Made by a program: the position numbers and the translations under genes. A stretch of 42,870 bases of DNA from NCBI GenBank assembly GCA_020849275.1, contig JADLGO010000003.1, positions 1-42,870 of the forward strand. The letters are read 5' to 3'. Within the stretch, counting starts at the first letter, position 1. Every line of letters starts with the position of its first letter. The notes beneath the pieces were generated by a model. It was not told the origin of the DNA, searched no databases, and was given only the letters and a program-made list of their open reading frames with translations. Positions 1,825 to 40,016 of the stretch are shown here, piece after piece. Source of the DNA: Chthonomonadales bacterium (GTDB lineage Bacteria > Armatimonadota > Chthonomonadetes > Chthonomonadales > CAJBBX01).

Positions 1825-1971
1825 GCGGGTTCCCTCCCTCTCCTATTCCATAGGACGGTCGCGGCCGCTCCGGCCGTTCCCTTCCGGGGGCGGACCGGCG
1901 CGACGGCGGTCTTCGCGTTCCAGCCGTGGGCTGTGGGGCGCGTTCGGTCGAATGTACTCCCTCCTCCGATC

Positions 1972-2784: not shown

Positions 2785-2786
2785 CC

Positions 2787-3743: not shown

Positions 3744-3901
3744 GAGCTGCTCCGACAGGGCGCGGAGCCGGAGCTCCGGAGGCCAGGGAGCCGGTCGACA
3801 CGCCCGAGTACGGCCACGGCGCAGCGGACCAAGTGCCTCTCTGCGGTGGGCCCGGAGCCTGTGGGCCGTGGCGGTACGCGGAGTACCGGTCTCGGGGTCC
3901 C

Positions 3902-6283: not shown

Positions 6284-6416
6284 GGGGTGCTCTCCGTGGG
6301 GCCGGCCAGGGGAGGCGGCCGGCGCGGCCTCAACCGTGTTCGGCCAACGTCGCGCGCACTCCTTCTGGGAGGGGCAGGTCGGTTCGCGCGCGTGGGCCCG
6401 CCGAAGGGGAAACGGG

Positions 6417-7178
6417 ATGCGAGTTGCCGGAGCGCAGATGCCGGTCACGAACTGCGTGGCGGAGAATCGCGACGCCATCCTGCGGGCTGTGGCCTTCGCG
6501 CGCCAGGAGGGCGCCGAGATCCTGCTTACGCCCGAAGGCTCGCTCAGCGGCTACCGGCCCGACTTCGACCGGGACGAGGTGGCGGACGCCCTGGAGGCCG
6601 TTCTCACCGCCGCGCGCGCGGCGCGTCTGGCCCTGGCGCTGGGAACGTGCTTCGCGGAGCCGGCTGACGGCCTCTGCTACAACCAGGTGCGCTTCTACGC
6701 CGCCGACGGCGCATTCCTCGGTTTCCACGGCAAGACGCTGCGGTGCGGCTCGCTGAAGGACCCGCCGCGCGGCGAGATCGAATGGTACGCGCCGGCCCCG
6801 CTGCGCACGTTCGACGTGGCCGGCGTCACCGTGGGGGCGCTCATCTGCAACGACCTGTGGGCCAACCCGGGGTGCACGCCCATGCCGGACCCGCACCTGA
6901 CGCAGCAGCTAGCGCGCGCGGGCGCCCGGGTGGTGTTCCACGCGGTGAATGGCGGCCGCGACGGCGGTCCGCTCTCCGCGGTGGCCTGGCACTATCACGA
7001 GTCGAACCTGCTGTTGCGGGCGCTGGCCGGCGGAATCTGGATCGTGACGGTGGACAACTGCCATCCGGGGCACATCGACTGCTCGGCGCCGTCGGGCGTG
7101 GTATCGCCGGAGGGGCGGTGGGCGCTGCGGTGTCCGGAGCGTGGCGAACGGCTGTTCGCCTGCACGCTGCCGCTCTGA
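6417..7178 (+). CDS. Carbon-nitrogen hydrolase (nitrilase superfamily)
   Basis: The 253-residue protein carries the complete Glu-Lys-Cys triad of the nitrilase superfamily: E40 in LLTPEGSLSG, K106 in FHGKTLR and C144 in ALICNDLW. It probably hydrolyses an amide or carbamoyl substrate in the cytoplasm, since there is no signal peptide. The segment SAVAWHYHESNLLLRALAGG is the family's helical region that packs against the active site. The start at 6417 is preceded by a GGGG-type Shine-Dalgarno and begins directly at the conserved first strand (MRVAGAQMPV). Neighbours do not reveal the substrate. Confidence 0.82.
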   Translation: MRVAGAQMPVTNCVAENRDAILRAVAFARQEGAEILLTPEGSLSGYRPDFDRDEVADALEAVLTAARAARLALALGTCFAEPADGLCYNQVRFYAADGAFLGFHGKTLRCGSLKDPPRGEIEWYAPAPLRTFDVAGVTVGALICNDLWANPGCTPMPDPHLTQQLARAGARVVFHAVNGGRDGGPLSAVAWHYHESNLLLRALAGGIWIVTVDNCHPGHIDCSAPSGVVSPEGRWALRCPERGERLFACTLPL

Positions 7179-7301
7179 GGCGGGCGCCGCCGCCCGCCCC
7201 CAAGAGGAGTGCGCCGCGCCGGGGCCGAAGAAGCCGGTATACTTCCACGTGCCGGCGCTCGCGCCCGGATGGACCGCCCACTTCAGGAGACACACGCCCC
7301 A

Positions 7302-10300
7302 ATGACCACATGGCGCCGCTCGCTCGCGTTCGCTCTCTTCGTGTCGTCGCTTGCTTGCTGCTCCGCGCTCGCCCAGCTCCCACCGCCAAAGCCAGCGCCC
7401 ATTGTGGGCGCCCGCATGCCCGCGCTCAGCCCGGACGGCAAACGGCTCGCATTCGTGTACAAGGGCGATATCTGGGTATCTGACGCGGCCGGCGGGCGAG
7501 CCACCAGCCTCACTCGCAACACGGAGATGGACGCCTATCCGATCTTCTCGCCCGACGGCGACTGGGTGGCCTTCTCCAGCCTGCGCGGCGGCAACTGGGA
7601 CATCTACGTGGTGCCGGCCGGCGGCGGCGAGCCCCAGCGGATCACCTGGCACGCGGGCTCGGACATCACCTACGGCTGGCGGCCGGACGGCAAGGAGCTC
7701 CTGTTCACGACCCGCCGCGACACGGCCGACGCCGAACTGCTGGCGATCGATCTGAAGACGCGGCGCCTGCGCAAGCTCGCCCAGGACTACACCGGCATGG
7801 CGGGCGCCAACTACTCGCCCGACGGGAAGCTCGTGGTCTACGGCCGCAACGACTTCTTCCACTGGACGCGGCCGCGTTACGTGGGCTCGGGCGCCCAGGA
7901 GGTGACCTTGCTCGACGTCGCCACCGGCGCGCGCAAGCAGGTAACGGACAACGAGCGCCAGCACCTGTGGACGCGCTTTCTGCCGGACGGGCGCCGCCTC
8001 ATCACGGTGACGTTCGGCGAGGTCACTCCCTCGGCCCCGAAGCTGGGAGAGACGCCGCGCAAGTGGACCGACTCGCCGGCGCGCACGCCGAACCTGTGGG
8101 AGATGACCCTGGACGGCAAGGCCCGCCAGCTCACCCATTTCACCGGCGGAAGCGTTCGGTTCCCCACGGTGGCCGCGCAGGCCGGCGAGATCGCCTTCGA
8201 GTATGGCTGCGACCTCTGGATGCTGCGCCGCGGCCAGAAGGAGCCGACGAAGGTCGCTCTCTACGCGTCGGAGGACAGCGCGGAGAACCCTGTATCGCAC
8301 GAGGTGCTGACCTCGGGCGTGTCGGAGGCGGAGCCCTCGCCGGACGGCAAACTCTACGCCTTCGGGCTCCGAGGCGACATCTGGACGATCGCCGTAGAGA
8401 AGCCGAAGGGCGTGGAGGGGCGCCCCGCCGAACATGCGCGCCGCCTGACCGACTGGGCCGGCGACGATTCGGACTTCCTGTGGTCGGCCGATGGCAAGAA
8501 GCTCTACTATCGCTCCGATCGGGAGTACGTCACGCGCCTCTTCGAGCTCGACCTGGCGAGCGGCAAGTCGCGATCGCTCTGGACGCGCCCGGAGGACGTC
8601 AATCAACTCTTCCTCTCCCCGGACGGCAAGCGGATCGCCTTCTGGATCGGCGGCGCCGAGGGTGGGCTCTACACAGTGGAGACGGCCACGGGCGCGATCA
8701 AGCGCCTGCTGGTGATGCCCGATCCGGCGCGCGCGCTGCAGTCGGGCGGCGAGGTGTCGTGGTCGCCGGACCTGCAGTGGATCGCCTTCACGGCCACCGA
8801 GGCGCCTGGCCCGGTGAACATCTGGATCGTGCCCTCCGCCGGCGGCGAGCCGGTCAACGTGACGCGCCTCAACGCCTACCATGGGCAGCCACGCTGGACG
8901 CCGGACGGCAAGTACCTGCTGTTTCAGAGCAACCGCGATGGCAACGGGCTCTACACGCTCCCGCTGACCGAGGAGACCGCGCGCGTCACGGACACCGACA
9001 TCAAGTTCGAGAAGCCAAAGGAGGCCGTCAAGGTCGCCATCGACTACAAGGACATCACCCGCCGCATCCGCAAGCTCGCCACGCAGAACCCGGACGGCGA
9101 CCTGACGGTGACGCCGGAGGGCCACATCTACTTCCTCTCTGGCGGCGATGTCTGGAGCCTGACCTACGATGGGAAGGACGCCAAGCGCATCACGTCGGGC
9201 GGGGGCTGCTCGGCGCTGCGCCTGATGAAGGACGGCAAGAAAGCGTTCTTCATGCGCGGCGGCGACCTGTGGTCGATGAAGCTGGAGGGGAGCAACCCTC
9301 AGGAGAAGGTGACCTTCACCGCGGACCTCGACCGCGACATGCGCGAGGTGCGCCGGGCGGCCTTCACGCAGTTCTGGTCGGCTTACAACCGTCGCTTCTA
9401 CGACCCGAACATGCACGGCCGCGACTGGGTGGCGACCCGGAAGCGCTATGAGCCGATGCTGGAGGCCGTGGAGACACGCCAGGAGTTCGCCACGCTGCTG
9501 CAGATGATGGTGGGCGAGCTGGAGAGCTCTCACTCCGAGGTGGGGTCTGCCGGAGGCGGCAACCCGAGCCCGACGACCCCGCACCTGGGCTTCACGTTTG
9601 ACTACGCGTACCAGGGACCCGGCATCAAGGTAGACACGGTGCCGGAGGGTGCGCCCGGCTCGTTCGAGAAGACACGCATCCGGCCCGGCGAGTACGTGCT
9701 GGCCATCGACGGGCAGGACGTGACCAATGACGAGAGCCTCTACAAGCTCATTAACAACCGCCAGGGCCGCGAGTTCTCCTTTCTGGTGAACGGCAAGCCG
9801 ACCAAGGAGGGCGCCCGCACGGTTAAGTACACGAACCTGAGCTCCGGCGAGTGGGGCAATCTGCTCTACCGCAACCGGGTCGAGCGGCTGCGCCAGTACG
9901 CGGAGCAGAAGAGCGGCGGCAAGGTCAGCTACGTGCACATCGCCGGGATGGGCGGCAGCAACCAGACCCAGTTCGAGCGCGAGCTCTACGAGTACTCGAT
10001 CGGCAGGAAGGCGATGATCATCGACGTGCGCTTCAACGGCGGCGGCAACATCTCCGACACGCTGGTCAACTGGCTGGAGCGCAAGCCGCACGGCTTCTAC
10101 CGCCCGCGTGATGGCGACCCCGAGCCGGCGCCCGGCCGCGCCTGGACGCTGCCGATCGTCATTCTGATGAACGAGCACAGCTTCTCCAACGCGGAGATGT
10201 TCCCCTCGGCCATGCGGGCGCGCGGCCTGGCGAAGCTCGTGGGCATGCCGACGCCGGGCTATGTGATCTGGACGTGGGGACTGCCCCTGGTGGACGGCAC

Positions 10301-10460
10301 CAACGGCCGAATGCCCGGCAGTGGCGTCTACCGCCTCGACGGAACGCCGCTGGAGGACATGGGCGAGAAGCCAGACGTGCGGGTGGCACTCTCGCCGGAG
10401 GACTGGCTGGCGGAGCGCGACCCGCAGCTCGACAAGGCGCTCGAGATCCTGATGAAATAG
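7302..10460 (+). CDS. Secreted tricorn-type protease (S41 family)
   Basis: This 1052-residue protein has a Sec signal peptide (MTTWRRSLAFALFVSSLACC, cleavage near ALAQ), then WD40/TolB-like beta-propeller repeats (SPDGKRLAF, SPDGDWVAFSS, SADGKKLYYRSD, TPDGKYLLFQSN) covering about 35-680, a helical region, a PDZ domain (about 770-850) and an S41 peptidase domain. Family catalytic residues are visible: H744 in SSHSEVG and S962 in NEHSFSNAE, close to the H746/S965 numbering of archaeal tricorn. Archaeal tricorn is cytosolic and trims proteasome products; bacterial homologues with signal peptides act outside the cytoplasm. The start at 7302 (ATG) follows AGGAG and begins the signal peptide. It is likely monocistronic. 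Confidence 0.9.
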   Translation: MTTWRRSLAFALFVSSLACCSALAQLPPPKPAPIVGARMPALSPDGKRLAFVYKGDIWVSDAAGGRATSLTRNTEMDAYPIFSPDGDWVAFSSLRGGNWDIYVVPAGGGEPQRITWHAGSDITYGWRPDGKELLFTTRRDTADAELLAIDLKTRRLRKLAQDYTGMAGANYSPDGKLVVYGRNDFFHWTRPRYVGSGAQEVTLLDVATGARKQVTDNERQHLWTRFLPDGRRLITVTFGEVTPSAPKLGETPRKWTDSPARTPNLWEMTLDGKARQLTHFTGGSVRFPTVAAQAGEIAFEYGCDLWMLRRGQKEPTKVALYASEDSAENPVSHEVLTSGVSEAEPSPDGKLYAFGLRGDIWTIAVEKPKGVEGRPAEHARRLTDWAGDDSDFLWSADGKKLYYRSDREYVTRLFELDLASGKSRSLWTRPEDVNQLFLSPDGKRIAFWIGGAEGGLYTVETATGAIKRLLVMPDPARALQSGGEVSWSPDLQWIAFTATEAPGPVNIWIVPSAGGEPVNVTRLNAYHGQPRWTPDGKYLLFQSNRDGNGLYTLPLTEETARVTDTDIKFEKPKEAVKVAIDYKDITRRIRKLATQNPDGDLTVTPEGHIYFLSGGDVWSLTYDGKDAKRITSGGGCSALRLMKDGKKAFFMRGGDLWSMKLEGSNPQEKVTFTADLDRDMREVRRAAFTQFWSAYNRRFYDPNMHGRDWVATRKRYEPMLEAVETRQEFATLLQMMVGELESSHSEVGSAGGGNPSPTTPHLGFTFDYAYQGPGIKVDTVPEGAPGSFEKTRIRPGEYVLAIDGQDVTNDESLYKLINNRQGREFSFLVNGKPTKEGARTVKYTNLSSGEWGNLLYRNRVERLRQYAEQKSGGKVSYVHIAGMGGSNQTQFERELYEYSIGRKAMIIDVRFNGGGNISDTLVNWLERKPHGFYRPRDGDPEPAPGRAWTLPIVILMNEHSFSNAEMFPSAMRARGLAKLVGMPTPGYVIWTWGLPLVDGTNGRMPGSGVYRLDGTPLEDMGEKPDVRVALSPEDWLAERDPQLDKALEILMK

Positions 10461-10560
10461 CGCTCTACCGGTTGGCGCCGTCAGGGCCGCTCGCGTCCCG
10501 GCGGCGCCCTCTCCCATCCGGCCGCTCCGCGCGATCGGGGCGCCGCCCAAGGTGACAGCC

Positions 10561-13542
10561 ATGCGATCCGCCTTCGTCGTCGCCATTGCCGCGGCCGGGC
10601 TCGCCCTCGCGCCCGCGGCCTCCGCCGCCGTGACGGCCGACCAACTCCGATGCGAGTACCGGGTGGATCCGCTCGCGGTGGACACAGCCCGGCCGCGGCT
10701 GAGCTGGATCGTGCGCGGAAGCCCGCGGGAGCGCGGTCTGCGCCAGACGGCCTATCGCATCCTGGTCGCCAGCGACGCGGCGCGGCTGCGACGCGGCGAG
10801 GGCGACCTGTGGGACACTGGCCGCGTGCCGTCGGCGGCCACGGCGCAGATCGCCTACGCCGGCGCGCCCCTGGGCGCCGGGCGGCGCTGCTGGTGGGCCG
10901 TGCGGCTCTGGGACGGCGCTGGCGAGGCGGGGGCGTGGAGCCGGCCGGCGACCTGGTCGGTGGGCCTGTTGGAGCCCTCCGACTGGAAGGCGAAGTGGAT
11001 CCGCTGCGCGGACCCCACGGCGGGCGCCGACGACCCCACCTACCTGCCCTCGCCCTACCTTCGGGCCGAGTTCGGGCTGAAGCGCGGCGTGCGGCGCGCC
11101 ACCCTGTACGCGACGGCGGCCGGCCTCTACGAGATGTGGATCAACGGGCGGCGCGTAGGGAGCGACCTCTTCACGCCAGGCTGGACCGAGTACGCGAAGC
11201 GGCTCTACTACCAGGCGTACGACGTGACCCAACTCTTGCGGCCCGGCGCGGCGAACGCGATGGGCGCCATCCTCGGCGACGGCTGGTACGGCCTGCACCA
11301 CGGAGGGCGAGGGAGGCTGGGGCTCCGGGCGCAGCTGCGCGTGCAGTACAGCGACGGCACGGAGCAGGAGGTGGCGACGGGGCCGGATTGGCGGGCGACG
11401 TGCGCGGGCCCGGTCCGCATGTCGGATATCTACAACGGCGAGAGCTACGACGCGCGGCGAGAGATGCCGGGCTGGAGCGAGCCGGGGTTCGACGCGGGCA
11501 CGTGGCCGCCGGCGGCCGTCGGGCTCTCGGAGGTGACGGTCGGCAGGCGCGACGTCACGGCGATCGTGCGGCAAGCGGTGCGCGATGGGCGGCTGGAGAT
11601 CACGGCGGGCAACGAGCTGTTCGGCGACCCGGCCTACGGCGTGGTGAAGCGGCTGCGCGTGGAGTACCGCGCGGGCGGGCGTCAGCGCGAGCGCACGGCG
11701 GCCGAGGGCGAGCGCGTCACCCTCGAGGGGCGCGGGCTGGAGATCGTGCGGGCGGACTACGGGCCGGACCCCGAGGCGCAGTCGCCCATCGGGGCGGCGC
11801 TGGAGGCCCATCCCGGCTCGCCCGTGCGGCGGACGGGGGAGGTGCGCCCGGTGTGGGTGCGGGAGCCGAAGCCCGGCGTCTACGTCTTCAACCTCGGGCA
11901 GAACCTCTCCGGCTGGGCGCGCCTGCGCGTGCGGGGCGAGGCGGGGCGGCGCGTGACGCTGCGGTTCGCGGAGATGCTGAACCCGGACGGAACGATCTAC
12001 ACGGCGAACCTGCGCCGCGCGCGCTGCACCGATACCTACACCCTGAAGGGCGCAGGCCAGGAGACCTGGGAGCCGCGCTTCACGTCCCACGGCTTCCAGT
12101 ACGTGGAAGTGACGGGCTATCCGGGCAGGCCGCCGGCGAGCGCGATCACGGGCGTGGCGCTCAACTCCGACGCGCCGATGACCAGCGGCTTCGAGTGCTC
12201 GAACCCGCTGCTGAACCAGCTCTACAGTAATATCGTGTGGGGCCAGCGCTCGAACTACCTGGAGGTGCCGACGGACTGCCCGCAGCGCGATGAGCGAATG
12301 GGCTGGAGCGGCGACGCGCAGGCTTTCATCGGCACCGCCGTCTACAACATGGACGTGGCGGCCTTCTTCACGAGCTGGATGAAGACGTTCAGCGACTCGC
12401 AGGACGCGCAGGGCGGCTACCCGAACGTGGCGCCGACGCACGGCGGAGTGTCGCCGGCGTGGGGCGACGCGGGCATCATCTGCCCGTGGACGATCCACCG
12501 CATCTATGGCGACACGCGGATGATCGCCGAACACTTCGACGGGATGGCACGCTGGATCGACTATCTGGAGCGCCGAAGCAGCGGCCTACTGCGCCCGGCG
12601 GAGGGCTTCGGCGACTGGCTGAACGTGGGCGCCGAGATGCCGAAGGACGTGATCGCCACCGCCTACTTCGCGCACAGCGCCGATCTGCTCGCGCAGATGG
12701 CGACTGCCATCGGTCGGCAGGAGGAGGCGCGCAAGTATCGCGACCTGTTCGAGCGGATCCGCGCGGCGTTCGTGGCGGCCTACGTGGGCGAGGATGGGCG
12801 GGTGAAGGGCGACACGCAGACGACCTACCTGATGGCGCTTGGATTCGACCTGCTGCCGCCCGAGCGCACGCCCGCCGCCGGTCGCCGGCTGGTGGAGCTG
12901 ATCGCGGAGCGCGACGGGCACCTCTCCACCGGATTCCTTGGCGTCAACCTGCTGCTGCCGGTGCTCACGGAGATCGGGCGGCCAGACCTGGCCTGGCGGC
13001 TCCTCACCACCGAGAGCTACCCGTCGTGGCTCTACAGCGTGACGCAGGGCGCCACCACGATCTGGGAGCGCTGGGACGGCTGGACGAAGGAGCGGGGCTT
13101 CCAGACGCCTACCATGAACTCGTTCAACCACTACGCCTACGGCTCGTGCGGCGAGTGGATGTTCCGGCGTGCGGCGGGCATCGACACGGACGGGGACGCC
13201 TTCGCGCGCATCCGCGTAGCGCCGATCCCCGGCGGCGGCCTGACGTGGCTACGCGCGCACTACGACTCGCCGCGGGGCCGTATAGCCACGGAGTGGCGGG
13301 TGGCCGGTGGGCGGCTGCGCCTCGCGGTCCGGGTGCCGCCGAACACGACTGCCACGGTGCTCGTGCCGCGGCGCGGCCCCGGGACGGTGACGGAGGGCGG
13401 CCGCCCGGCGCGCGAGGCGCGCGGTGTGCGGCTGGCACGCGAGGAGGAGGGCGTCGAGGTCTACGCGGTGGGTTCCGGCAGCTACGTGTTCGAGTCGCCC
13501 TGGTCGCCGGAGCGTGGCGAGGCGGCCGAGGCGGTGCGATGA
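10561..13542 (+). CDS. Secreted alpha-L-rhamnosidase, GH78
   Basis: This 993-residue protein has a signal peptide (cleavage near ASAA), an N-terminal fibronectin-like domain (about 28-140, PRLSWIVRG), the Bac_rhamnosid_N sandwich (about 150-330, YATAAGLYEMWINGRRVG), a ConA-like sandwich (about 420-540, FNLGQNLSGW) and the (alpha/alpha)6 catalytic barrel. The GH78 signature DCPQRDERMGWSGDAQ starts at residue 572, with the acid in the D577/E578 cluster, and the second catalytic Glu is E836 in TIWERWDGW. GH78 enzymes invert configuration while removing terminal alpha-rhamnose from pectic rhamnogalacturonan, gellan-like polymers or glycosides. ATG at 10561 is preferred over a GTG 9 nt upstream because AAGG lies in front of it. 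Its stop overlaps the start of the next gene (ATGA), so the two are translationally coupled. Confidence 0.93.
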   Translation: MRSAFVVAIAAAGLALAPAASAAVTADQLRCEYRVDPLAVDTARPRLSWIVRGSPRERGLRQTAYRILVASDAARLRRGEGDLWDTGRVPSAATAQIAYAGAPLGAGRRCWWAVRLWDGAGEAGAWSRPATWSVGLLEPSDWKAKWIRCADPTAGADDPTYLPSPYLRAEFGLKRGVRRATLYATAAGLYEMWINGRRVGSDLFTPGWTEYAKRLYYQAYDVTQLLRPGAANAMGAILGDGWYGLHHGGRGRLGLRAQLRVQYSDGTEQEVATGPDWRATCAGPVRMSDIYNGESYDARREMPGWSEPGFDAGTWPPAAVGLSEVTVGRRDVTAIVRQAVRDGRLEITAGNELFGDPAYGVVKRLRVEYRAGGRQRERTAAEGERVTLEGRGLEIVRADYGPDPEAQSPIGAALEAHPGSPVRRTGEVRPVWVREPKPGVYVFNLGQNLSGWARLRVRGEAGRRVTLRFAEMLNPDGTIYTANLRRARCTDTYTLKGAGQETWEPRFTSHGFQYVEVTGYPGRPPASAITGVALNSDAPMTSGFECSNPLLNQLYSNIVWGQRSNYLEVPTDCPQRDERMGWSGDAQAFIGTAVYNMDVAAFFTSWMKTFSDSQDAQGGYPNVAPTHGGVSPAWGDAGIICPWTIHRIYGDTRMIAEHFDGMARWIDYLERRSSGLLRPAEGFGDWLNVGAEMPKDVIATAYFAHSADLLAQMATAIGRQEEARKYRDLFERIRAAFVAAYVGEDGRVKGDTQTTYLMALGFDLLPPERTPAAGRRLVELIAERDGHLSTGFLGVNLLLPVLTEIGRPDLAWRLLTTESYPSWLYSVTQGATTIWERWDGWTKERGFQTPTMNSFNHYAYGSCGEWMFRRAAGIDTDGDAFARIRVAPIPGGGLTWLRAHYDSPRGRIATEWRVAGGRLRLAVRVPPNTTATVLVPRRGPGTVTEGGRPAREARGVRLAREEEGVEVYAVGSGSYVFESPWSPERGEAAEAVR

Positions 13543-31328: not shown

Positions 31329-31610
31329 GTGGAACTCGAGGAGATGGTGCGCATTCCGGAGTACTACACGGACTCCGTGAACTTCATGACGAACCTGTAC
31401 GGCTTCACGCTGGATTTCGCGGTGATGGACGCTCAGGAGCAGCCGCCGCGCTCGCAGGTGCGCGTTCGCATGAGCCCACAGCACGCCAAGATCATGAGCC
31501 TGCTGCTGCGCAAGAACGTGCAGGAGTACGAGCGGCGCATCGGCACGATCATCCTGCCCGAGCAGCTCTACCGTGATCTGGGGATCACGGACGACATGGC
31601 CGACGAGTAG
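31329..31610 (+). CDS. DUF3467-family small protein
   Basis: This 93-residue protein matches the DUF3467 pattern: YTDSVNFMTNLYGFTLDF near the N-terminus, then a MSPQHAKIMSLLLRKNVQEYE helix and the ending typical of the family. Members are about 90 residues, widespread in bacteria and of unknown function. The GTG at 31329 has GGGGAGG about 7 nt upstream. It sits between ParA and the small terminase and is followed by a strong hairpin, so it may be transcribed separately from the packaging genes. Confidence 0.82.
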   Translation: MELEEMVRIPEYYTDSVNFMTNLYGFTLDFAVMDAQEQPPRSQVRVRMSPQHAKIMSLLLRKNVQEYERRIGTIILPEQLYRDLGITDDMADE

Positions 31611-31710: not shown

Positions 31711-32136
31711 ATGGGCACCGACTGGGAGCCGCGCCTGCTGGAGGCGCTGCGGCGCACGGGCAGCGTGCGGCTGGCGGCACGGGAGGCGGGCGTGGCGCCG
31801 GAGGCGGTGACGCGGCGCGAGCGGCGGCGGCCGGCATTCGGGCGCGCGGTTGCCGAGGCGATCGCCGAGGCGGTGGACGCGCTGGAGGCCGAGGCGCGGC
31901 GCCGCGCCGTGGAGGGCGTCGCCCGCCCGGTCTACTACGCGGGACAGGAGTGCGGGGAGGTGCGCCACTACAGCGACGCGCTGCTGCTGGCGCTGCTGCG
32001 GGCGGGCCGACCGGAGCGCTTCGGGCGGCCAGCGATCGGCGGGCCGGCGCAGGAGCGCGGGCTGCTTGCGGCGATGCCGACGCTGAGGGTGCGCCCGGTG
32101 GAGGCGGGCGAGGAGCAAGATGCCGACGGCGGGTAG
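31711..32136 (+). CDS. Phage small terminase-like HTH protein
   Basis: This 141-residue protein has a helix-turn-helix at about residues 5-35 (LLEALRRTGSVRLAAREAGV then AVTRRERRRPAFG), followed by long charged helices, the layout of TerS proteins that recognise viral DNA and recruit the large subunit. Its location immediately before the large terminase, with a 17-nt overlap, supports this. GGAGGTG lies 8 nt upstream of the ATG. Sequence conservation in TerS is low, so the call rests on the HTH and the gene order. Confidence 0.72.
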   Translation: MGTDWEPRLLEALRRTGSVRLAAREAGVAPEAVTRRERRRPAFGRAVAEAIAEAVDALEAEARRRAVEGVARPVYYAGQECGEVRHYSDALLLALLRAGRPERFGRPAIGGPAQERGLLAAMPTLRVRPVEAGEEQDADGG

Positions 32137-33430
32137 GCTCTGGTCGCGCGGGGCCGAGGGCGTGGAGGTCCGCTTCCACTCGGGCCAGCGACGGGCGTGG
32201 GAGAGCCGGAAGCGCTTCGTGTTCGTGGTGGCGGGGACCCAGTCCGGGAAGACTTCGTGGGGGCCGTGGTGGCTGTGGCGCGAGATCTACGGCCTGCCCG
32301 GCCACCCGGGGCGCGGGCCGGGCGACTACCTGGCCGTGACGGCGACCTACGACCTGTTCAAGCTCAAGATGCTCCCGGCGCTGCGCGAGTGCTTCGAGGA
32401 GGCGATGGGATCCGGGCGGTGGCGCGCGACCGAGCGCGCGATCGAGTTGGCGGACCCGGCGACGCGGGAGTTGCGCGGCGAGCGCGGGCGCGCGCCCTGG
32501 GGCCGCATCCTGCTGCGGTCGGCGGCGGCCGGCGCCGGGTTGGAGAGCGCGACGGCGCGGGCGGCATGGCTGGACGAGTGCGGCCAGGACGGCTTTCGGC
32601 TGGAGACCTGGGAGGCGGTGCTGCGCCGGCTCTCGCTGGCGCAGGGGCGGGCGCTGGGCACCACCACGCCCTACAACATGGGCTGGCTGAAGACGGAGGT
32701 GTTCGAGCGATGGCGCGCCGGCGATCCCCGGTTCGACGTGATCCGGTTCCACTCCACCGAGAACCCGGCGTTCCCGCGCGCGGAGTATGAGCGGGCGCGC
32801 GAGACGATGCCGGCCTGGCGCTTCCGCATGTTCTACCAGGGCGAGCTTGCCCGGCCGGAGGGGCTCGTGTACGACTGCTTCGACGAGGCGGCGCAGTCCG
32901 CGCCGGAGCGGCGGCCGCCGCCCGAGTGGCCCCGTTGGGTGGGGGTTGACTTTGGGGCGGTGAACACGGCCCTGGTCTGGGTGGCGGAGGATCTGGCCTG
33001 CGGGCGGTGCGAGGTCTACCGCGAGTCGCTGGAGGGCGGGCTGAGCACTCCAGAGCACGCCCGACGTGCGCTGGCGGAGGCTGCCGGGGTGAACGTGGCG
33101 GCCTTCGTGGGGGGAGCGCCGGGCGAGGAGCAGCAGCGGATGGACTGGGCGCGGGCGGGCGTACCGGTGCGGCGCCCGCCTGTGCGCGACGTGGAGGCCG
33201 GCATCGATCGGGTTACGGAGCTCCTGCGGACCCGGCGGCTGTTCGTGCAGCGCTCGTGCCGCGGGCTGCTGGAGGAGATGGGCTCCTACCGGCGGCGCCT
33301 GGATGCGGCGGGGCATCCGACGGACGACATCGAGGAGAGGGCGCGTTTCCACCGGCTGGACGCCCTGCGCTACGCCGTGTGCGGGATGCTCGGCGGGCGC
33401 GTGACGATGACGGAGGGATGGTTGCGATGA
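32120..33430 (+). CDS. Phage terminase large subunit
   Basis: This 436-residue protein is a DNA-packaging motor. The ATPase domain has Walker A AGTQSGKT (38-45), Walker B AAWLDECG (148-155) and the coupling motif GTTTP (180-184). The nuclease domain (RNase H fold) starts with VGVDFGAVN, where D277 is a metal ligand, and its other acidic residues lie around D402-D403 and D414 (TDDIEERARFHRLDALRYA). All expected catalytic residues are present, so packaging could be functional. It starts inside the small-terminase gene with GAGGAG a few bases upstream, and its stop overlaps the portal start (ATGA). Confidence 0.93.
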   Translation: MPTAGRLWSRGAEGVEVRFHSGQRRAWESRKRFVFVVAGTQSGKTSWGPWWLWREIYGLPGHPGRGPGDYLAVTATYDLFKLKMLPALRECFEEAMGSGRWRATERAIELADPATRELRGERGRAPWGRILLRSAAAGAGLESATARAAWLDECGQDGFRLETWEAVLRRLSLAQGRALGTTTPYNMGWLKTEVFERWRAGDPRFDVIRFHSTENPAFPRAEYERARETMPAWRFRMFYQGELARPEGLVYDCFDEAAQSAPERRPPPEWPRWVGVDFGAVNTALVWVAEDLACGRCEVYRESLEGGLSTPEHARRALAEAAGVNVAAFVGGAPGEEQQRMDWARAGVPVRRPPVRDVEAGIDRVTELLRTRRLFVQRSCRGLLEEMGSYRRRLDAAGHPTDDIEERARFHRLDALRYAVCGMLGGRVTMTEGWLR

Positions 33431-34725
33431 CGAGCGTTGCGGACCTGACCGCGCGCGAGGCGGCGCTTGGGGAGATGCGGCGGCTGGAGCGCATGCGCGC
33501 CGCCTGGCAGGCCTACTACGGCGACTCGCCGGCTCCGCTGCCGGTGCGGCCGGGCGCGCCGGACGACAACGTGCGGCTGAACTTCGCGCGCCTGATCGTG
33601 GATAAGGGTGTCTCGTTCCTCTTCGGGCGGGGCGTGGGCTTCGAGCTTGATGGCGAGGCCCGGCGCAGCGCCGCGGAGGCCTGGCTCGACCGGGTGTGGC
33701 AGGCGAACCGCAAGGACACGCTCCTGCACCGCGTCGCCGTGAACGGCGGGGTGTGCGGCCACGCCTGGGTGCGGGTCCGGGCAGGCGCGGCGCCGGGCGA
33801 GCCGCCGCGCCTGCTGGCAGTCGACCCGCAGACGGTGAGCGTGCGGTGCGCTCCGGACGACTGGGAGACTCCGGTGGAGTACCGCATCGAGTGGCACGGG
33901 GTAGACCCGCGCGACGGCGGCGCGGTGGCGTTTCGGCAGGCGATCGCGCGGGCGGAGGGGCGTGGTTGGAGCGTGGTGGACCAGGTGAGCGAGGGCGACC
34001 GGCGCGAGTGGCGCACGACGCGCGCGGAGCGGTGGCCGCACGACTGGCCGCCGCTGGTGGGCTGTCAGAACCTGCCCGCGCCCAACGAGCTCTGGGGCAT
34101 GGGCGACCTGGAGGGCGACCTGCTGGAGGTGCTGGCCGCGCTGAGCCAGGCGGTGAGCAACGTCAATCGAATCCTGCGGCTGCACGCGCACCCGAGGATA
34201 TGGACCGCCGGGTTTACTCCGGGGCCCGATTTCCGCACGGCGCCCGACGCTGTGACCCACATGCCGGCCGGGGCCACGATGCAGAGCCTGGAGATGCGCA
34301 CCGACCTGTCCTCCTCGCTGGCATTCATCGCGTCGCTGCAGGAGGCCTGGCACGAGCTCGCTCGGGTGCCGGCCGTGGCCACCGGCCGGCTGGCCGACAT
34401 CGGGCGGCTCTCCGGGGTCGCGCTGCAGATCCTCTACCAGCCCTTGCTGGAGAAGACGGAGACGAAGCGGATGCTCTACGGCGACCTGCTCGCGGAGCTG
34501 AACCGACGGCTTCTGGAGATGGGCGGATTCGGCGGCGACCGGCGCACGGCGCTGCGCTGGCCGGACATGGTGCCGGCCGACCCGCGGGCGGAGGCGGAGG
34601 CAGCGCTGCGGCACCGGGAGCTCGGGGTGAGCGAGGCGACCCTGATGGAGCGGTTGGGGTTCGACCCCGGCCTGGAGGCGAGCAAGCGCGCCGGGACGGC
34701 GCCCGAGGGCGCGGGGAGGCGGTGA
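33427..34725 (+). CDS. Phage portal protein, SPP1 gp6-like
   Basis: This 432-residue protein has the order of features of SPP1-type portals: an N-terminal helix (LGEMRRLERMRAAWQAYYG), NFARLIVDKGVSFLFG, a wing region (YRIEWHG), the NELWGMGDLEGDLLEVLAALSQAVSNVNR helix region, and RLSGVALQILYQPLLEKTETK, the conserved stem/crown motif. The dodecameric portal is the DNA entry pore of the capsid. The ATG at 33427 overlaps the terminase stop; GGAGG lies 10 nt upstream. An ATG at 33418 is possible but sits directly on that Shine-Dalgarno. The stop overlaps the next start by one base. Confidence 0.9.
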   Translation: MTSVADLTAREAALGEMRRLERMRAAWQAYYGDSPAPLPVRPGAPDDNVRLNFARLIVDKGVSFLFGRGVGFELDGEARRSAAEAWLDRVWQANRKDTLLHRVAVNGGVCGHAWVRVRAGAAPGEPPRLLAVDPQTVSVRCAPDDWETPVEYRIEWHGVDPRDGGAVAFRQAIARAEGRGWSVVDQVSEGDRREWRTTRAERWPHDWPPLVGCQNLPAPNELWGMGDLEGDLLEVLAALSQAVSNVNRILRLHAHPRIWTAGFTPGPDFRTAPDAVTHMPAGATMQSLEMRTDLSSSLAFIASLQEAWHELARVPAVATGRLADIGRLSGVALQILYQPLLEKTETKRMLYGDLLAELNRRLLEMGGFGGDRRTALRWPDMVPADPRAEAEAALRHRELGVSEATLMERLGFDPGLEASKRAGTAPEGAGRR

Positions 34726-34943
34726 TGGCGGGCGGAGACGGCTGGGATGAGTACCAGCGGATGCTGCTGGGCCGAGTGGACGAGTTGACGGCGGCAGTAC
34801 ACGACCTGCAGCGGCGCCAGGGTGAGCTGGCGGTGGCGCTCGGGCAGCTCCAGGTGAAGGCGGGCGCATGGGGCGCGGCGGCGGCGCTGCTGGCCTTCCT
34901 GTTGACCCTGGCGCCGATGCTGTTGGAGCGGGCGACGCGCTAG
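34725..34943 (+). CDS. Small coiled-coil membrane protein, XhlA-like
   Basis: This 72-residue protein has an N-terminal amphipathic coiled coil (about 12-44, RVDELTAAVHDLQRRQGELA) and one C-terminal transmembrane helix (about 47-67). That layout matches phage XhlA-like membrane proteins, which in other phages work with holin and endolysin; no endolysin is present here. It could instead anchor the particle or DNA machinery to the membrane. The ATG overlaps the portal stop by one base and GGGAGG lies 5 nt upstream, so translation is coupled. The call is by architecture only. Confidence 0.6.
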   Translation: MAGGDGWDEYQRMLLGRVDELTAAVHDLQRRQGELAVALGQLQVKAGAWGAAAALLAFLLTLAPMLLERATR

Positions 34944-35010: not shown

Positions 35011-36849
35011 ATGGGCGATATGGCAAGCTGTGAGCTGGCGGTGGCCGGCTACGGGTACGGGACCAACGGCGGCTCCTGGGTAGGCGGCACGGCGGTGACC
35101 GGGCAGTTCATCGTGGACGTGAACAACCCGATCGCGCTGCCAGTTGAGCTGCCGGACGAGGAGCGGCAGCCGGCGGCGCTCTGGCAGTACGTGAACGGCG
35201 GCGTGGCCGGGCTGCTCGTGCGGGTGATGGTGCTGCGGCCCAACGACCCGCAGGCGCCGTCGTCGTTCACGCTCTGTGGGCACAGCGACCCGTTCGACAA
35301 CCCACCGATGCGAACCGTGGTGGACCTTCGTGGTCGGTGGCACTGGATGGCAGGCGAGACGCAGTTGACGAACGGCGACCTGCTGGGCCTGCATCTGGCG
35401 TACCCGACGCCGCGGGACCTGAAGGTGGCGGGGGCGGGGCAGGCCGGTGGGGCCCGCCTGCTGTCCGCGGAGTGGTCGACGGGGCCGCTCTCGGGCATGT
35501 CCACGTTCGGCTACGACCCGCTGCTTGCGTTGTTCGTGGACACGACGCGCAAGCGCTTCGAGATCGCGGCGGCGCCCGGCGCGACGGCGCGGCTGCCCTA
35601 CTTCCGGTCGGTCCCCTACTTCGTCGTGCTGGACGAAGTGCGCCAGTCGGACGGGGGGAGCCTGACGTTCACGTTCCAGGGAGTCCGGAGCACGGACACT
35701 CCGGCCGGCACGAAGGCCGACGTGGTGACGGCGCAGACGCTGGTGCTGGACCACGGCGCGATCGACCAGGTGACCTATGGCGGGGTGAGCGTTGCCCTGT
35801 CCGCGGGGGAGGCGGGCGGCGTCTTCACCTTCCTCGTCGGGCTGGACCCGACGGCGAAGGCGGCGGACCTCTACTACGCGGATCTCACGCGCGGTCAGGC
35901 GGGCGGCTCATCGGCGGCGGACGTGGCGCTGACTTGCCACGCGGTTCGCGCCGGCGGCGTACGCGGCGCGCGCCACCCCTCGGACGGCGGCGGGAACGGC
36001 GACGACCTCCGGTGGAGCCGACTCGCCATCGCCTCGAGCGGCGGCGCGCCCTCCATCGGGCGGGTGATGGTGGCGCGGCGGCCATGGGTGGGGGGCGTCT
36101 CGAGCTGGTCGGCACGCTACGAGGGGCACATGCGCCGGGCACACGTGGCGGAGGCGCTGCACGACGCGGCGGCGGGCCACTTCGCCTGCCCGCCGTGCGT
36201 GGTGTCGGTGGGCATTCCCGGCGGGCGGCTCGCGCTGGACACGAGCACCGTGACCGGCTTCCAGCGGCGCTTCGGGGCGGCGGACGGGTCGACGCCCGGC
36301 CTGCACGACCTGTGCGAGCTGCGCGGGGCAGTGGTGTTCGTGGAGGCCGGCGGGGCGGTGAACGACCTGGTGAGCGCGGCAAGCGCGGAGGGCAACCGCC
36401 CGGGGCCCGGGTTCCGGCAGACGCTTCGCGACTGCCTGGCCGCGGTCACGCTGATCGTGCGGCTGGCGATGGCCAACGGCAACGAGGTGGTGATCGCGGA
36501 CGCGCCGCCGATCACTCTGGAAGTGGGTGGCGAGGAGTGCGGCTACTGGTACCTCTCGGAGGCGCGGCGGCGCTACAACGCGGCGCTGCATGCGCTGTGC
36601 GCGGCGACCGGCGCGGTGTTCGTGTCGACGGAGGCGGCGGTGCGCGACGCGACGCCGGTGCTGTCGCACCCGGCTGCGGGGAGCCCCCGGACACTGGAGG
36701 ATCGGCTGCGGCCCGACCTTCGCCAGGACGCCGCGCACCTTGCCGCCGCGGGCGACGCGGAGGTGGCGCTCCGCATGGCGCGGGCCTACGAGGGCGCGGG
36801 CGCGGCGCCGGAGTCGCCGGGGCGGGGACGGATGTCGATCGGGCTGTGA
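35011..36849 (+). CDS. Fibre/spike-like virion protein with C-terminal SGNH-like domain
   Basis: The 612-residue protein is predicted to be beta-rich in its first 330 residues (structural or receptor-binding) and has an SGNH-hydrolase-like C-terminus at about 380-600. Block III is visible as GGAVNDL (GxND, about 447) and block V as DAAHLAAAGD (DxxH, about 573); VGIPGGRL may be block II. The block I GDS nucleophile is not obvious. SGNH esterases on phage fibres remove acetyl groups from surface polysaccharide. The next gene resembles the head-spike base of gene transfer agents, so this is a candidate head-spike fibre. GGGAGG lies 5 nt before ATG 35011. The middle part has no recognised domain. 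Confidence 0.65.
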   Translation: MGDMASCELAVAGYGYGTNGGSWVGGTAVTGQFIVDVNNPIALPVELPDEERQPAALWQYVNGGVAGLLVRVMVLRPNDPQAPSSFTLCGHSDPFDNPPMRTVVDLRGRWHWMAGETQLTNGDLLGLHLAYPTPRDLKVAGAGQAGGARLLSAEWSTGPLSGMSTFGYDPLLALFVDTTRKRFEIAAAPGATARLPYFRSVPYFVVLDEVRQSDGGSLTFTFQGVRSTDTPAGTKADVVTAQTLVLDHGAIDQVTYGGVSVALSAGEAGGVFTFLVGLDPTAKAADLYYADLTRGQAGGSSAADVALTCHAVRAGGVRGARHPSDGGGNGDDLRWSRLAIASSGGAPSIGRVMVARRPWVGGVSSWSARYEGHMRRAHVAEALHDAAAGHFACPPCVVSVGIPGGRLALDTSTVTGFQRRFGAADGSTPGLHDLCELRGAVVFVEAGGAVNDLVSAASAEGNRPGPGFRQTLRDCLAAVTLIVRLAMANGNEVVIADAPPITLEVGGEECGYWYLSEARRRYNAALHALCAATGAVFVSTEAAVRDATPVLSHPAAGSPRTLEDRLRPDLRQDAAHLAAAGDAEVALRMARAYEGAGAAPESPGRGRMSIGL

Positions 36850-36873
36850 GGCGGCTGGAGAGGAGGAGGGCCG

Positions 36874-37128
36874 ATGGGCTACGGGGGGCCGCAGGAGGAC
36901 ATGGGGCGCCCGGCGGCGCGCGCCGCGCCGGTCTCACCGGCGGACGAGGACATGGCGGAGTGGGCGCTGGCGCTCTACGTGGGCCTGGGCGGCGACGTGC
37001 GCCTGACGACGTGGCGTGGCGACACGGCCACCTTTAGCAACGTGCCGAGCGGCTCGGTGCTGCCAGTGCGGGCGCGGCGCGTGTGGTCGACGGGAACGAC
37101 GGCCGGCGAGATCGTGGCGCTGGGCTGA
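36874..37128 (+). CDS. Head-spike base protein, Rcc01079 (GTA) family-like
   Basis: This 84-residue protein has the complete core of the small spike-base family named after Rhodobacter capsulatus GTA protein Rcc01079: ALYVGLGGDVRLTTWRGDT (33-51), FSNVPSGSVLPVRARRVW (54-71) and STGTTAGEIVAL (72-83). In the R. capsulatus GTA, this protein plugs into the capsid vertices and carries the head-spike fibre that binds recipient capsule. The N-terminal 30 residues are Gly/Pro/Ala-rich and unlike the core. GAGGAGG lies 6 nt before the ATG. The gene sits between the fibre-like gene and the scaffold. Family call from recalled motif similarity, not from a search. Confidence 0.72.
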   Translation: MGYGGPQEDMGRPAARAAPVSPADEDMAEWALALYVGLGGDVRLTTWRGDTATFSNVPSGSVLPVRARRVWSTGTTAGEIVALG

Positions 37129-37153: not shown

Positions 37154-37561
37154 ATGGATCCGGAGGAGAGGCCGCCCGCGGAGGGCGGCGGCAAGGCGCC
37201 GCGGCCGGAGGGAGAGGCATGGCGCCTGGAGCGCGAGGAGCTGCTGACGCGGCTGGAGGTGGAGCGGCACGCGCGGCGGCTCGGGCTGGTGGACGAGGAG
37301 GCGGCCTGGCGCCTGCTGGATGCGGCCGCGGTGGAGCGCGACGCCGCGGGGCGCCCGACGAACGTGGAGGCGCTGCTGCGCGAGATGGCGCGGGCGCGGC
37401 CGTGGCTGGCTGCGGCGGAGCCGCCTGGAGGGGGCGTGTCGGCGGCGAACCCGGCGGGTGGGCGCGGGGTGCGGCTGAGCCGGGACGAGATCCGGCGCAT
37501 GACGCCGGAGCAGATCAACGCCAACTGGGCGGCCGTGCAGGCCGCGCTGCAGTCCGAGTAG
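37154..37561 (+). CDS. Phage capsid scaffold-like protein
   Basis: This 135-residue acidic/helical protein precedes the major capsid gene, as scaffolds do. It has a charged helix (WRLEREELLTRLEVERHARR, 23-42), a segment VDEEAAWRLLDAA followed by AAGRPTNVEALLREM (65-79) that resembles the D-x-x-G-x-P-T-N motif seen in many siphophage scaffolds, a Gly/Pro linker, and a C-terminal helix-turn-helix (LSRDEIRRMTPEQINANWAA, 108-127) that would contact the shell. No protease domain is fused and none is encoded nearby, so assembly may be protease-free. GAGGAGA is about 9 nt upstream. Confidence 0.75.
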   Translation: MDPEERPPAEGGGKAPRPEGEAWRLEREELLTRLEVERHARRLGLVDEEAAWRLLDAAAVERDAAGRPTNVEALLREMARARPWLAAAEPPGGGVSAANPAGGRGVRLSRDEIRRMTPEQINANWAAVQAALQSE

Positions 37562-37653: not shown

Positions 37654-38511
37654 ATGGGTCTGGAGAGCTTCATACCGGAGGTGTGGTCGGCGCGTCTGCT
37701 GGCCAACCTGCATAAGGCGCAGGTGTACGGCCAGCCCGCGGTGACGAGCATGGACTACGACGGCGACATCCGCGAGTTCGGAGACACGGTGCGCATCAAC
37801 GCGATCGGCCCGGTGAGCGTGTCGGACTACACGCGCAACACCGACATCGACGCGCCGGAGACACTCGATGACTCGCAAACGGTGCTGGCCATCGACCAGG
37901 CGAAGTACTTCAACTTCCAGATCGACGACGCGGACCGGGCGCAGCAGCGGCCCAGGGTGATGGACGCGGCGATGGCCGAGGCGGCTTACGCCGTGTCGGA
38001 CGCGGCGGACCAGCACATCGCCGCGCTCTACAGCGCGATCGACGCGGGCAGCTTCGTGGGAAGCGACGCCAGCCCCAAGACGGGCTACGACGCCTCCGAC
38101 GTGTACGAGCTGCTGGTCGACTTGAAAGTGATCCTCGATGAGCGCAACGTGCCGACGGAGGGGCGCTTCTGCGTGATCCCGCCCTTCCTGCACGGCTACC
38201 TGCTGAAGGACGATCGGTTCGTGCGGGCGGGCACGGCGGCCACCGACCGCACTCTGCGCAACGGCGAGGTGGGCCAGGCGGCTGGCTTCCGAATGCTCAT
38301 GAGCAACAACGTGCCCTACGCGGCCGGCCCGGCCAGGTTCAAGGTGATCGCGGGCCACCCGATGGGATGGACATACGCCAGCCAGATCCGCAAAGTGGAG
38401 GCCTACCGGCCGGAGCGACGGTTCGCCGACGCAGTGAAGGGTATCCACCTGTATGGGGCGAAGGTGGTGCGCCCGACGGCGCTGGCCTGCCTGGTGATCA
38501 ACGCGACGTGA
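37654..38511 (+). CDS. Major capsid protein (HK97-fold type)
   Basis: This 285-residue protein resembles coat proteins that use a separate scaffold: an N-terminal arm (ESFIPEVWSARLLANLHKAQ), the conserved DGDIREFGDTVRINAIGPVSV strand segment, DIDAPETLDDSQTVLAIDQAKYFNFQIDDADRAQ (long loop, 59-92), a spine helix region (DAAMAEAAYAVSDAADQHIAALY), RFCVIPPFLHGYLLKDDRF and a C-terminal GFRMLMSNNVPY-type strand. Length and layout match HK97-fold coats without a cleaved delta domain. It would assemble around the portal and scaffold. The ATG at 37654 follows a GAGGGGGG stretch. Confidence 0.88.
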   Translation: MGLESFIPEVWSARLLANLHKAQVYGQPAVTSMDYDGDIREFGDTVRINAIGPVSVSDYTRNTDIDAPETLDDSQTVLAIDQAKYFNFQIDDADRAQQRPRVMDAAMAEAAYAVSDAADQHIAALYSAIDAGSFVGSDASPKTGYDASDVYELLVDLKVILDERNVPTEGRFCVIPPFLHGYLLKDDRFVRAGTAATDRTLRNGEVGQAAGFRMLMSNNVPYAAGPARFKVIAGHPMGWTYASQIRKVEAYRPERRFADAVKGIHLYGAKVVRPTALACLVINAT

Positions 38512-38572: not shown

Positions 38573-39100
38573 ATGGCGCGCAGCGGGATGGCCGCGCTGA
38601 TCGCGCGGCTGCGGGGACTGGTGGGCGACCCGGCGGGCTCCGGCGCCGCGTGGACCGACGACGAGCTGGAGCAGGCGCTGGACGCGCGGCGGCGGGAGGC
38701 GCGCTATCTGGAGTTGGAGCCCATGCCGGAGCGCGCGGCTGGCGGCGCAGTGACCTACCGGCTCTACCGGGCGCCCTGCGGCGATTGGGAGGCGGACGAG
38801 GAGCTGGTGGGCGCGCGCTACGAGCCGCTGACGCCGGCAGAGAGCGACCCCCTGGCCGGGCGCTGGGCGATGGCGCAGGAGGTGCGGCCGCCGGTCCGCC
38901 TCTCCGGCAAGACCTACGACCTGTGCGGGTCGGCGGCCGACGTGCTGGAGGCGTGGGCCGCTCGCGTCAAGCTGGAGTTCGACTTCGCGGCGGGCGACCT
39001 GCGGTTCGAGCCCTCGCGGAAGGCGGCGGCGCTGCTGGAATTGGCCGCCCGCCTGCGCGGGCGGCAGCGCAGCGTGACCGCCGAGTTGCGGCGAGAGTGA
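38573..39100 (+). CDS. Phage head-tail connector (adaptor) protein
   Basis: This 175-residue protein is mostly helical with a central sheet segment (VTYRLYRAPCGDWEADEELVG). The C-terminal stretch DLCGSAADVLEAWAARVKLEFDFAAGD matches the form of siphophage head-tail adaptor proteins located after the capsid gene. Such proteins ring the portal on the outside of a filled capsid and close it or allow tail binding. AAGGAGG lies 6 nt upstream of ATG 38573. An in-frame GTG-like upstream start would run into the hairpin. Confidence 0.72.
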   Translation: MARSGMAALIARLRGLVGDPAGSGAAWTDDELEQALDARRREARYLELEPMPERAAGGAVTYRLYRAPCGDWEADEELVGARYEPLTPAESDPLAGRWAMAQEVRPPVRLSGKTYDLCGSAADVLEAWAARVKLEFDFAAGDLRFEPSRKAAALLELAARLRGRQRSVTAELRRE

Positions 39101-39113
39101 GGGGAGCGGCAGG

Positions 39114-39452
39114 ATGCTGAGCAGTGAGGACCTGGCCCGGATGCGGGCGATCATCGCGCGGGTGCTGCCGGAGGAGGCGGCGATCCTGCGGTACGACCCG
39201 CTGGCGCACCAGTGGGCCGCAGTGGCGACGCGGCCGTGCCGCGTCATCCCGAAGCGCTCCGTGACGCGCAACGCCAACGGCATGCTGGAGGGCGTGACGC
39301 TGTGGCACGTGATGCTGCCGCACGACACCGATGCGCGCGCGGGAGACCGGCTCCAGACGCCCGCGGGCACCTTCGGAGTGACCGGCACGGACGCCGGCCG
39401 GACCGACGCGCTGTCGCTGGTGGCGCAGTGCTCGCCGGTGGATCCCGCGTAG
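39114..39452 (+). CDS. Phage head-closure/stopper-like protein
   Basis: This 112-residue beta-rich protein follows the adaptor gene, as stoppers do in SPP1- and HK97-like phages. It has a short N-terminal helix (LSSEDLARMRAIIARVLPEE), then strands typical of the barrel (QWAAVATRPCRVIP, LEGVTLWHVMLPHDTD, RLQTPAGTFGVTGTD). Stoppers close the portal channel after packaging and form the tail docking surface. It is the last viral gene: the next reading frame is the ferritin-like gene. Call based on order and fold pattern. Confidence 0.6.
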   Translation: MLSSEDLARMRAIIARVLPEEAAILRYDPLAHQWAAVATRPCRVIPKRSVTRNANGMLEGVTLWHVMLPHDTDARAGDRLQTPAGTFGVTGTDAGRTDALSLVAQCSPVDPA

Positions 39453-39593: not shown

Positions 39594-40016
39594 ATGGGCA
39601 ACCACGCGCTCATCGCCGCGATGAACGAGCAGCTTTCCGCCGAATACCAGGCGATCATCCAGTACATCCAGTACTCGGCCATCGTCTCTGGGCCGCAGAG
39701 GCCGCAACTCGCGGCCTTCTTCCGCGGGGAGATCCCGGACGAGCAGAAGCACGCGCAGTACCTGGCGGACAAGGTATCGGTACTGGGCGCGACGCCGACG
39801 ACTACGGCCAAGCCGGTGCTGGTCGGCTCATCGCCGCGCGAGCTGCTGGAAAACGTGCTGGAGGGGGAGAAGCACGCCATCGCCGCCTACACGAAGCTGA
39901 TCGATCTGGCGGACGAGGCCGGGGAGGTGGGCATCCGCATCCGGATGGAGGATTTCGTTCAGGACGAGAACACGCACCGTGACGAGACCCTGAAGATCCT
40001 GGAGGGGCCCTGGTAG
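39594..40016 (+). CDS. Ferritin-like diiron protein (bacterioferritin/DPS-like)
   Basis: This 140-residue four-helix-bundle protein has two ferroxidase half-sites: E17, E50 and H53 (EQKH) in helices 1-2, and E92, E125 and H128 (ExxH in DENTH) in helices 3-4. That is the pattern of bacterioferritin-type diiron sites. It probably oxidises Fe(II) and protects against oxidative damage, or stores iron if it forms a shell. It is shorter than classical bacterioferritin (about 158 residues), and no clear haem-ligand Met is seen. AAGGAG lies 8 nt before the ATG. It follows the viral cassette by 141 bases and is probably independently transcribed. Confidence 0.82.
   Translation: MGNHALIAAMNEQLSAEYQAIIQYIQYSAIVSGPQRPQLAAFFRGEIPDEQKHAQYLADKVSVLGATPTTTAKPVLVGSSPRELLENVLEGEKHAIAAYTKLIDLADEAGEVGIRIRMEDFVQDENTHRDETLKILEGPW

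Follow-up and report, generated by a model that had tools for sequence, protein, structure and literature searches.

Gene content of the head cassette

The stretch of DNA analyzed here (hereafter, the window) comprises 42,870 nucleotides from a Chthonomonadales bacterium (genome G000). On its forward strand, it carries a cassette of head and packaging genes in the order DUF3467, small terminase subunit (TerS), large terminase subunit (TerL), portal, 73-aa protein, 612-aa protein, spike base, scaffold, capsid, probable adaptor, and stopper, with the following features:

31329–31610, + strand: DUF3467 gene, 93 aa, a single-copy chromosomal marker (PF11950, E = 8e-11)
31711–32136, + strand: TerS (phrog_4044, E = 2.1e-32; start chosen by codon model)
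32120–33430, + strand: TerL (phrog_2, E = 3.2e-25)
33427–34725, + strand: portal protein, SPP1 gp6-like (PF05133, E = 7.6e-20; phrog_64/104)
34722–34943, + strand: 73-aa protein with a C-terminal hydrophobic stretch, holin-accessory-like by appearance only (sequence inspection)
35011–36849, + strand: 612-aa orphan protein with a C-terminal degenerate GDSL/SGNH-like domain (PF13472 over residues 400–581, below cut-off; motif scan)
36874–37128, + strand: head-spike base protein of the Rcc01079 family, 84 aa (NF048002, E = 3.7e-25; PDB 6tb9, E = 6.5e-7; profile, E = 6.3e-17)
37154–37561, + strand: head scaffolding protein (phrog_206, E = 0.007, a weak match)
37654–38511, + strand: major capsid protein, HK97-fold, phrog_267 (E = 1.5e-70; PF25209; profile against PDB 8e16, E = 6.5e-48)
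38573–39100, + strand: probable head-tail adaptor, 175 aa (assigned from its place between the capsid and stopper genes)
39114–39452, + strand: stopper/head-closure protein, 112 aa, the last cassette gene (AlphaFold2 model, neck-protein matches)

Overlaps and short gaps between these genes suggest that the cassette is a single operon. An earlier note on this DNA had placed the spike base inside the capsid operon, and it was indeed found within the run of terminase, portal, scaffold, and capsid genes. The nearest TerL found to that of the window belongs to a tailed prophage (G017, E = 4e-156). The scaffold gene, directly before the capsid gene, is conserved in relatives (E-values down to 1e-32). 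For the 73-aa protein, no family match above cut-off was obtained in Pfam, PHROGs, or NCBIfam, and no lysis genes were recognized.

The 175-aa protein is a probable head-tail adaptor by position only; its gene is also present in two tailed prophages (G017 and G193), and its profile gave no significant match to the PDB, only a weak hint. The 112-aa protein was modeled with AlphaFold2 from ten homologues (mean pLDDT 88.7), and the model resembles stopper/neck proteins from the phages SPP1 and lambda and from RcGTA (Z 8.9–10.4 in VIA-align 2; best Foldseek E-value about 1e-3). Its predicted fold is that of a stopper. A profile search of this protein against the PDB returned spurious Kelch/DARPin rows without matched stretches, which were discarded, and its identity was settled by structure.

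Spike base protein

The 84-aa ORF starts with the ATG at 36874, preceded upstream by the stretch GGAGGAGG, and was chosen as coding by the in-frame codon model. The earlier note had reported an 84-aa protein with a set of core strings here; both are present and the ORF coordinates were exact. Its assignment to the Rcc01079 family also holds. In the profile search, NCBIfam NF048002 (‘spike base protein, RCAP_Rcc01079 family’) aligned to residues 8–83 with 88.0 bits (E = 3.7e-25), above the curated cut-off of 28 bits that defines membership. Using phmmer against the PDB, the protein matched 6tb9_E3 (‘Head spike base Rcc01079’, E = 6.5e-7) and 8cjz_h (‘Spike Base Protein’, E = 2.4e-4), and a profile of 11 homologues matched 6tb9 with E = 6.3e-17. 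By these matches, the protein is a bona fide spike base of the Rcc01079 family, with a resemblance far beyond chance. It also matches phrog_12296 (E = 6.7e-17), which PHROGs labels ‘tail fiber protein’, and automatic annotation would therefore hide the spike base.

Ordinary tailed phages of Flavobacterium, Edwardsiella, and Verrucomicrobia encode homologues of the base, as do GTA-like clusters of the alphaproteobacterial type that continue into tail genes. The presence of a base is therefore no proof of a GTA or of a tailless particle, and the ‘GTA-type’ label that had been attached to it was too narrow. On this distribution, a spike base is best taken to mean head decoration, not a GTA and not taillessness. 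In RcGTA, the base forms a pentamer with its N-termini bound to the capsid vertices (PMC7296036). The base is not conserved across all cassettes (it is missing beside the capsid in genus g7), and taken alone, the protein is an ordinary additional member of its family. In two genomes of another family, f14 (G154, locus L164; G155, locus L163, positions 9548–10925), host genes surround a small group made up of a spike base, a 112-aa protein, and a ConA-like fibre with the anchor, with no other phage genes near.

The 612-aa neighbor and the fibre of the base

Directly upstream, a 612-aa ORF (ATG start, chosen as coding by the same in-frame model) ends 24 bases before the base ORF. Its product had been described as fibre-like; however, the protein had no match in PHROGs or the PDB and no relative among 50,697 phage records or in IMG/VR. 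The sole signal was a GDSL-like domain (PF13472) over residues 400–581, with 30.1 bits (E = 8.5e-7) against a cut-off of 32.9. A motif scan found DxxH at residue 573 and no recognizable GDS nucleophile, which makes it doubtful that this SGNH-like domain is an active esterase. The N-terminal part is predicted to be mostly beta. An AlphaFold2 model built without an alignment was poor (mean pLDDT 36.9) and was therefore not used for a fold search.

In RcGTA, residues 2–10 of the fibre (IALGLGLGL) bind the base pentamer and are the sole part of the fibre resolved at high resolution (PMC7296036). We surveyed 25 loci (the window and 24 others) in which a spike base is followed by a gene on the same strand. 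A strict Ile/Leu-Gly motif was present within the first 22 residues of the downstream gene in 11 of the 25 loci, compared to 13 of 823 other genes (Fisher p = 2e-12; graded anchor score, p = 7e-9), although these p-values overstate independence because many of the loci are related to one another. In relatives, an Ile/Leu-Gly anchor usually opens the protein encoded immediately after the base. This provides a simple rule for the likely fibre of any Rcc01079-type base, namely a directly downstream gene with such an N-terminal anchor. Within the same family as the window’s genome, ConA-like proteins that adjoin a base scored 7, 7, and 4 for the anchor, those of G007 and G010 carry Ile/Leu-Gly anchors, and the two scored ConA-like proteins of genus g7 reached 3 each.

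In the window, the gene downstream of the base is the scaffold, which is without the anchor motif. The 612-aa protein scored 4 of 7 at its N-terminus and 5 at its C-terminus, both within background (17% of other genes scored at least 5 at the N-terminus), and the IALGLGLGL-like N-terminal anchor of Rcc01080-type fibres was not found in it. We put the chance that it is the fibre of this base slightly below even, with attachment via a non-canonical N-terminus (residues 9–17, LAVAGYGYG) or via the C-terminus (ending in RMSIGL); this reading bears on the pair alone and does not conflict with the explanation favored below. The two genes adjoin, 24 bases apart, and in alphaproteobacterial clusters (e.g., L033) SGNH-like fibres with an N-terminal anchor-like motif come after the base, whereas the 612-aa gene lies upstream, its anchor scores are at background, and it has no homologues. 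SGNH-like domains suit surface glycans. The 612-aa protein is a candidate receptor-binding protein with a putative attachment to the base, and we infer that the fibre in this genome is either this SGNH-like protein, attached unusually, or a protein encoded elsewhere. Of the base and fibre pair claimed by the earlier note, the base is confirmed and the pair is unproven, which is the weakest part of the finding.

Conservation, host locus, and inheritance

The cassette (portal, scaffold, phrog_267 capsid, adaptor-like protein, and stopper) is present in six more genomes of the same family (G004, G006, G007, G009, G010, and G011), with the DUF3467 gene beside it in all seven carriers. Across families f1 and f2, DUF3467 adjoins a packaging cassette in all 11 genomes that have it; in G002, G003, G005, and the f2 genome G012, it adjoins or lies close to a packaging cassette of another kind (that of G002 has portal phrog_113 and capsid phrog_1005), in which no tail genes were recognized where the contig was long enough. 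Elsewhere in the phylum, DUF3467 occurs without an adjoining cassette, and the idea that it is a phage gene was dropped on account of these other families. We read the DUF3467 gene as a host locus where head cassettes are probably kept or exchanged. This second cassette type, which lies next to the DUF3467 gene in G005, G002, and G012 (L128–L131), encloses a DNA polymerase IV (DinB)-like gene between portal and protease in G002 and G005.

In the capsid tree, the seven carriers fall into a single clade (UFboot 96, SH-aLRT 94) in which each genus stays together. Co-diversification of the cassette with its host is likely. Within genera, dN/dS values of the cassette genes range from 0.08–0.39 (dS up to 1.2), and the comparison of G007 and G010 gave about 0.15–0.19 at dS 0.85–1.2, showing that the cassette genes are under purifying selection. 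In G009 and G011, TerL is encoded on a contig separate from the cassette, and in G006 its reading frame is interrupted by one stop; the TerL of the window belongs to another lineage. Criteria for viriform GTAs include an endogenized genome, vertical inheritance, a particle too small for its own genome, and DNA delivery (PMC9662315). A genome endogenized, often over several loci, is what we found here, with the cassette among host genes in seven genomes and TerL elsewhere in G009 and G011.

A decaying prophage remnant, in which the spike base would be a functionless leftover, is very unlikely in our judgment. Tail, replication, and lysis genes are missing and the G006 TerL frame is interrupted, as expected of a remnant, but the head genes are intact in all seven carriers, the dN/dS values are low both within genera and between G007 and G010 at dS near 1, and random loss would not end at the same gene boundary in several genera.

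Capsid-forming phage satellites (cf-PICIs) encode a head as far as the connector and lack tail genes, a design that the gene content of the cassette matches. A satellite of this kind, with its own head and with tails taken from helper phages, is nonetheless highly improbable. On inspection of the called genes, no integrase, primase, or satellite regulator was recognized beside the cassette in the seven genomes, no direct repeats of 18 or more bases were found flanking the cassette, and the same flanking host gene together with single-clade capsids argue for vertical inheritance.

G006 contains a second, different head cassette (L014, G006:C178:32000–51999, positions 1944–12786) with an HK97-type capsid, a portal with a PBECR1 nuclease-like domain, and a protease, as well as its own spike base, an anchored ConA-like protein, and a stopper, followed by non-cassette genes.

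Search for tail genes

Host genes follow the stopper after position 39452 of the window, and no tail genes were found downstream of the stopper there or in five of the six related cassettes, the sixth (G007) being ended by its contig. The cassette is thus not a complete tailed prophage, in which tail genes would come after the stopper. G017 and G193, both tailed, have the cognate TerL, portal, capsid, adaptor, and stopper genes and, after them, a gp10-like gene and tail genes; the truncation point, where the tail would begin, is therefore visible. Profiles of the tape measure (PF10145), tail completion (PF11367), and HK97-gp10 (PF04883) families gave no match above cut-off in any carrier genome, including that of the window, with one PF10145 match below cut-off in G007. 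The same three profiles matched the tailed relatives, but PF10145 missed the tape measure of G193, and since tail families are diverse, the silence of PF10145 is weak evidence alone.

A second, unlinked locus might supply the GTA-like particle with a tail or short tail, which is possible, if on balance somewhat unlikely; RcGTA is likewise spread over several loci, and FpGTA has a second operon. The particle would then be spiked and not tailless. The stopper has been kept under selection although the known partner of a stopper is a tail terminator, TerL, too, lies apart from the cassette in G009 and G011 (on separate contigs), and FpGTA I, a similar head operon, has an operon II about 125 kb away (PMC12946183). 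However, three tail families are without a match above cut-off in any carrier, and an eCIS, the sole tail-like locus seen, is not co-distributed with the cassette.

The eCIS-like locus of the window’s own genome (L226–L227, G000:C44:22000–61999) encodes sheath, tube, LysM, spike, gp25-like, and large baseplate proteins (named by inspection). The contractile tube gene (PF06841) is present in G000, G007, and G010 (two copies each in the latter two) and was not found in G004, G006, G009, and G011. This tube was rejected as the missing tail, being part of the eCIS-like locus in G000 and not found in four carriers.

The earlier note had suggested that recognition built into the head would fit a tailless particle. 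The gene content fits such a particle, with no tail genes after the stopper, whereas the base does not prove it and a second-locus tail is the competing possibility. Going by the genes present, a tailless particle is the simplest interpretation.

Comparison with known systems

The closest known counterpart of the base is the head spike of RcGTA (Rcc01079/Rcc01080, Rhodobacter capsulatus), whose base is also 84 aa, belongs to the same family, and shares a conserved G-x-L-P-V-R...TGTTA segment. The systems differ in other respects: RcGTA has a full tail and a different capsid family, whereas the window has a head-only cassette with a phrog_267 capsid. The RcGTA fibre begins with IALGLGLGL, whereas the 612-aa protein precedes the base and is without that start. 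The base of the window lies between portal and capsid, unlike in RcGTA, where the spike genes are presumably apart from the capsid genes, judging from locus numbers.

Alphaproteobacterial-type GTA-like clusters (L026–L037, from IMG/VR) have the base within the head operon, as in the window, and in some cases an SGNH-like fibre. In these clusters, however, the base directly follows an HK97-type capsid, the anchored fibre directly follows the base, and the long clusters run into tail genes. The siphovirus-like prophages G017 and G193, from the same phylum, have phrog_267-type heads with the same gene order as the window from TerL to stopper, but gp10-like, tail-completion, and further tail genes follow, and no spike base was found in them.

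The nearest precedent is the FpGTA of gut Faecalibacterium (Nat Commun 2026), which has a 10.5-kb head operon and whose 40-nm particles, without identifiable tails, contain about 9 kb of DNA (PMC12946183). A second operon about 125 kb away encodes baseplate, fibre, and lysis genes; FpGTA is described as podovirus-like, and its authors take the particle as short-tailed (PMC12946183). FpGTA I is, like the cassette of the window, a small operon with TerS, TerL, portal, scaffold, and capsid genes, conserved in the host genus.

Gut Clostridia encode relatives of the window’s capsid in comparably short operons that have host genes on either side. Five such loci (L067, L097, L100, L109, and L113) have the order TerS, TerL, 560-aa protein, portal, scaffold, capsid, and 130-aa protein, resembling FpGTA I, and no spike base was found in the Clostridia loci examined. 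In a Chloroflexi genome (AS06; L055, positions 8132–12203), a scaffold-capsid pair of the same family is followed by a sigma-factor-like gene in place of tail genes.

A probable domesticated head cassette with proposed vertex spikes

We consider it probable that the window contains a host-domesticated, vertically inherited head-and-packaging cassette that derives from a tailed phage, was truncated where the tail begins, and is GTA-like with vertex spikes. Expression of the operon would lead to procapsids built on the scaffold, which the terminase would fill with DNA through the portal and which adaptor and stopper would close. Base pentamers would sit on the capsid vertices, as in RcGTA, and may hold a glycan- or surface-binding protein, so that recognition would reside on the head. 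Particles of a GTA-like kind, filled with host DNA, would result. The sequences show head genes that are intact and selected; from there, assembly, host-DNA packaging, spike attachment, and delivery are steps that we infer. The stricter form, a domesticated and truly tailless GTA with stopper-closed, DNA-filled capsids, recognition by vertex spikes only, and DNA release via portal and stopper or uptake of the whole particle, seems unlikely.

Well-studied GTAs are tailed. Beyond the known GTA lineages, the gene arrangements here point to a head-only cassette that is conserved and probably bears recognition on the head; this setting is stronger than the spike-base finding itself. A limited literature search, which does not prove that none exists, returned no paper on tailless GTAs or on Armatimonadota GTAs. 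If it holds the RcGTA receptor-binding device inside its capsid operon, a head-only cassette conserved in a different phylum would uncouple both packaging of DNA and cell recognition from the tail, and whether gene transfer needs a tail would become testable.

Directly after the cassette of the window (39594–40016) lies a ferritin-like/Dps-like gene, whose product matches, below cut-off (E = 0.0016), the encapsulin ferritin-like cargo family NF058679.
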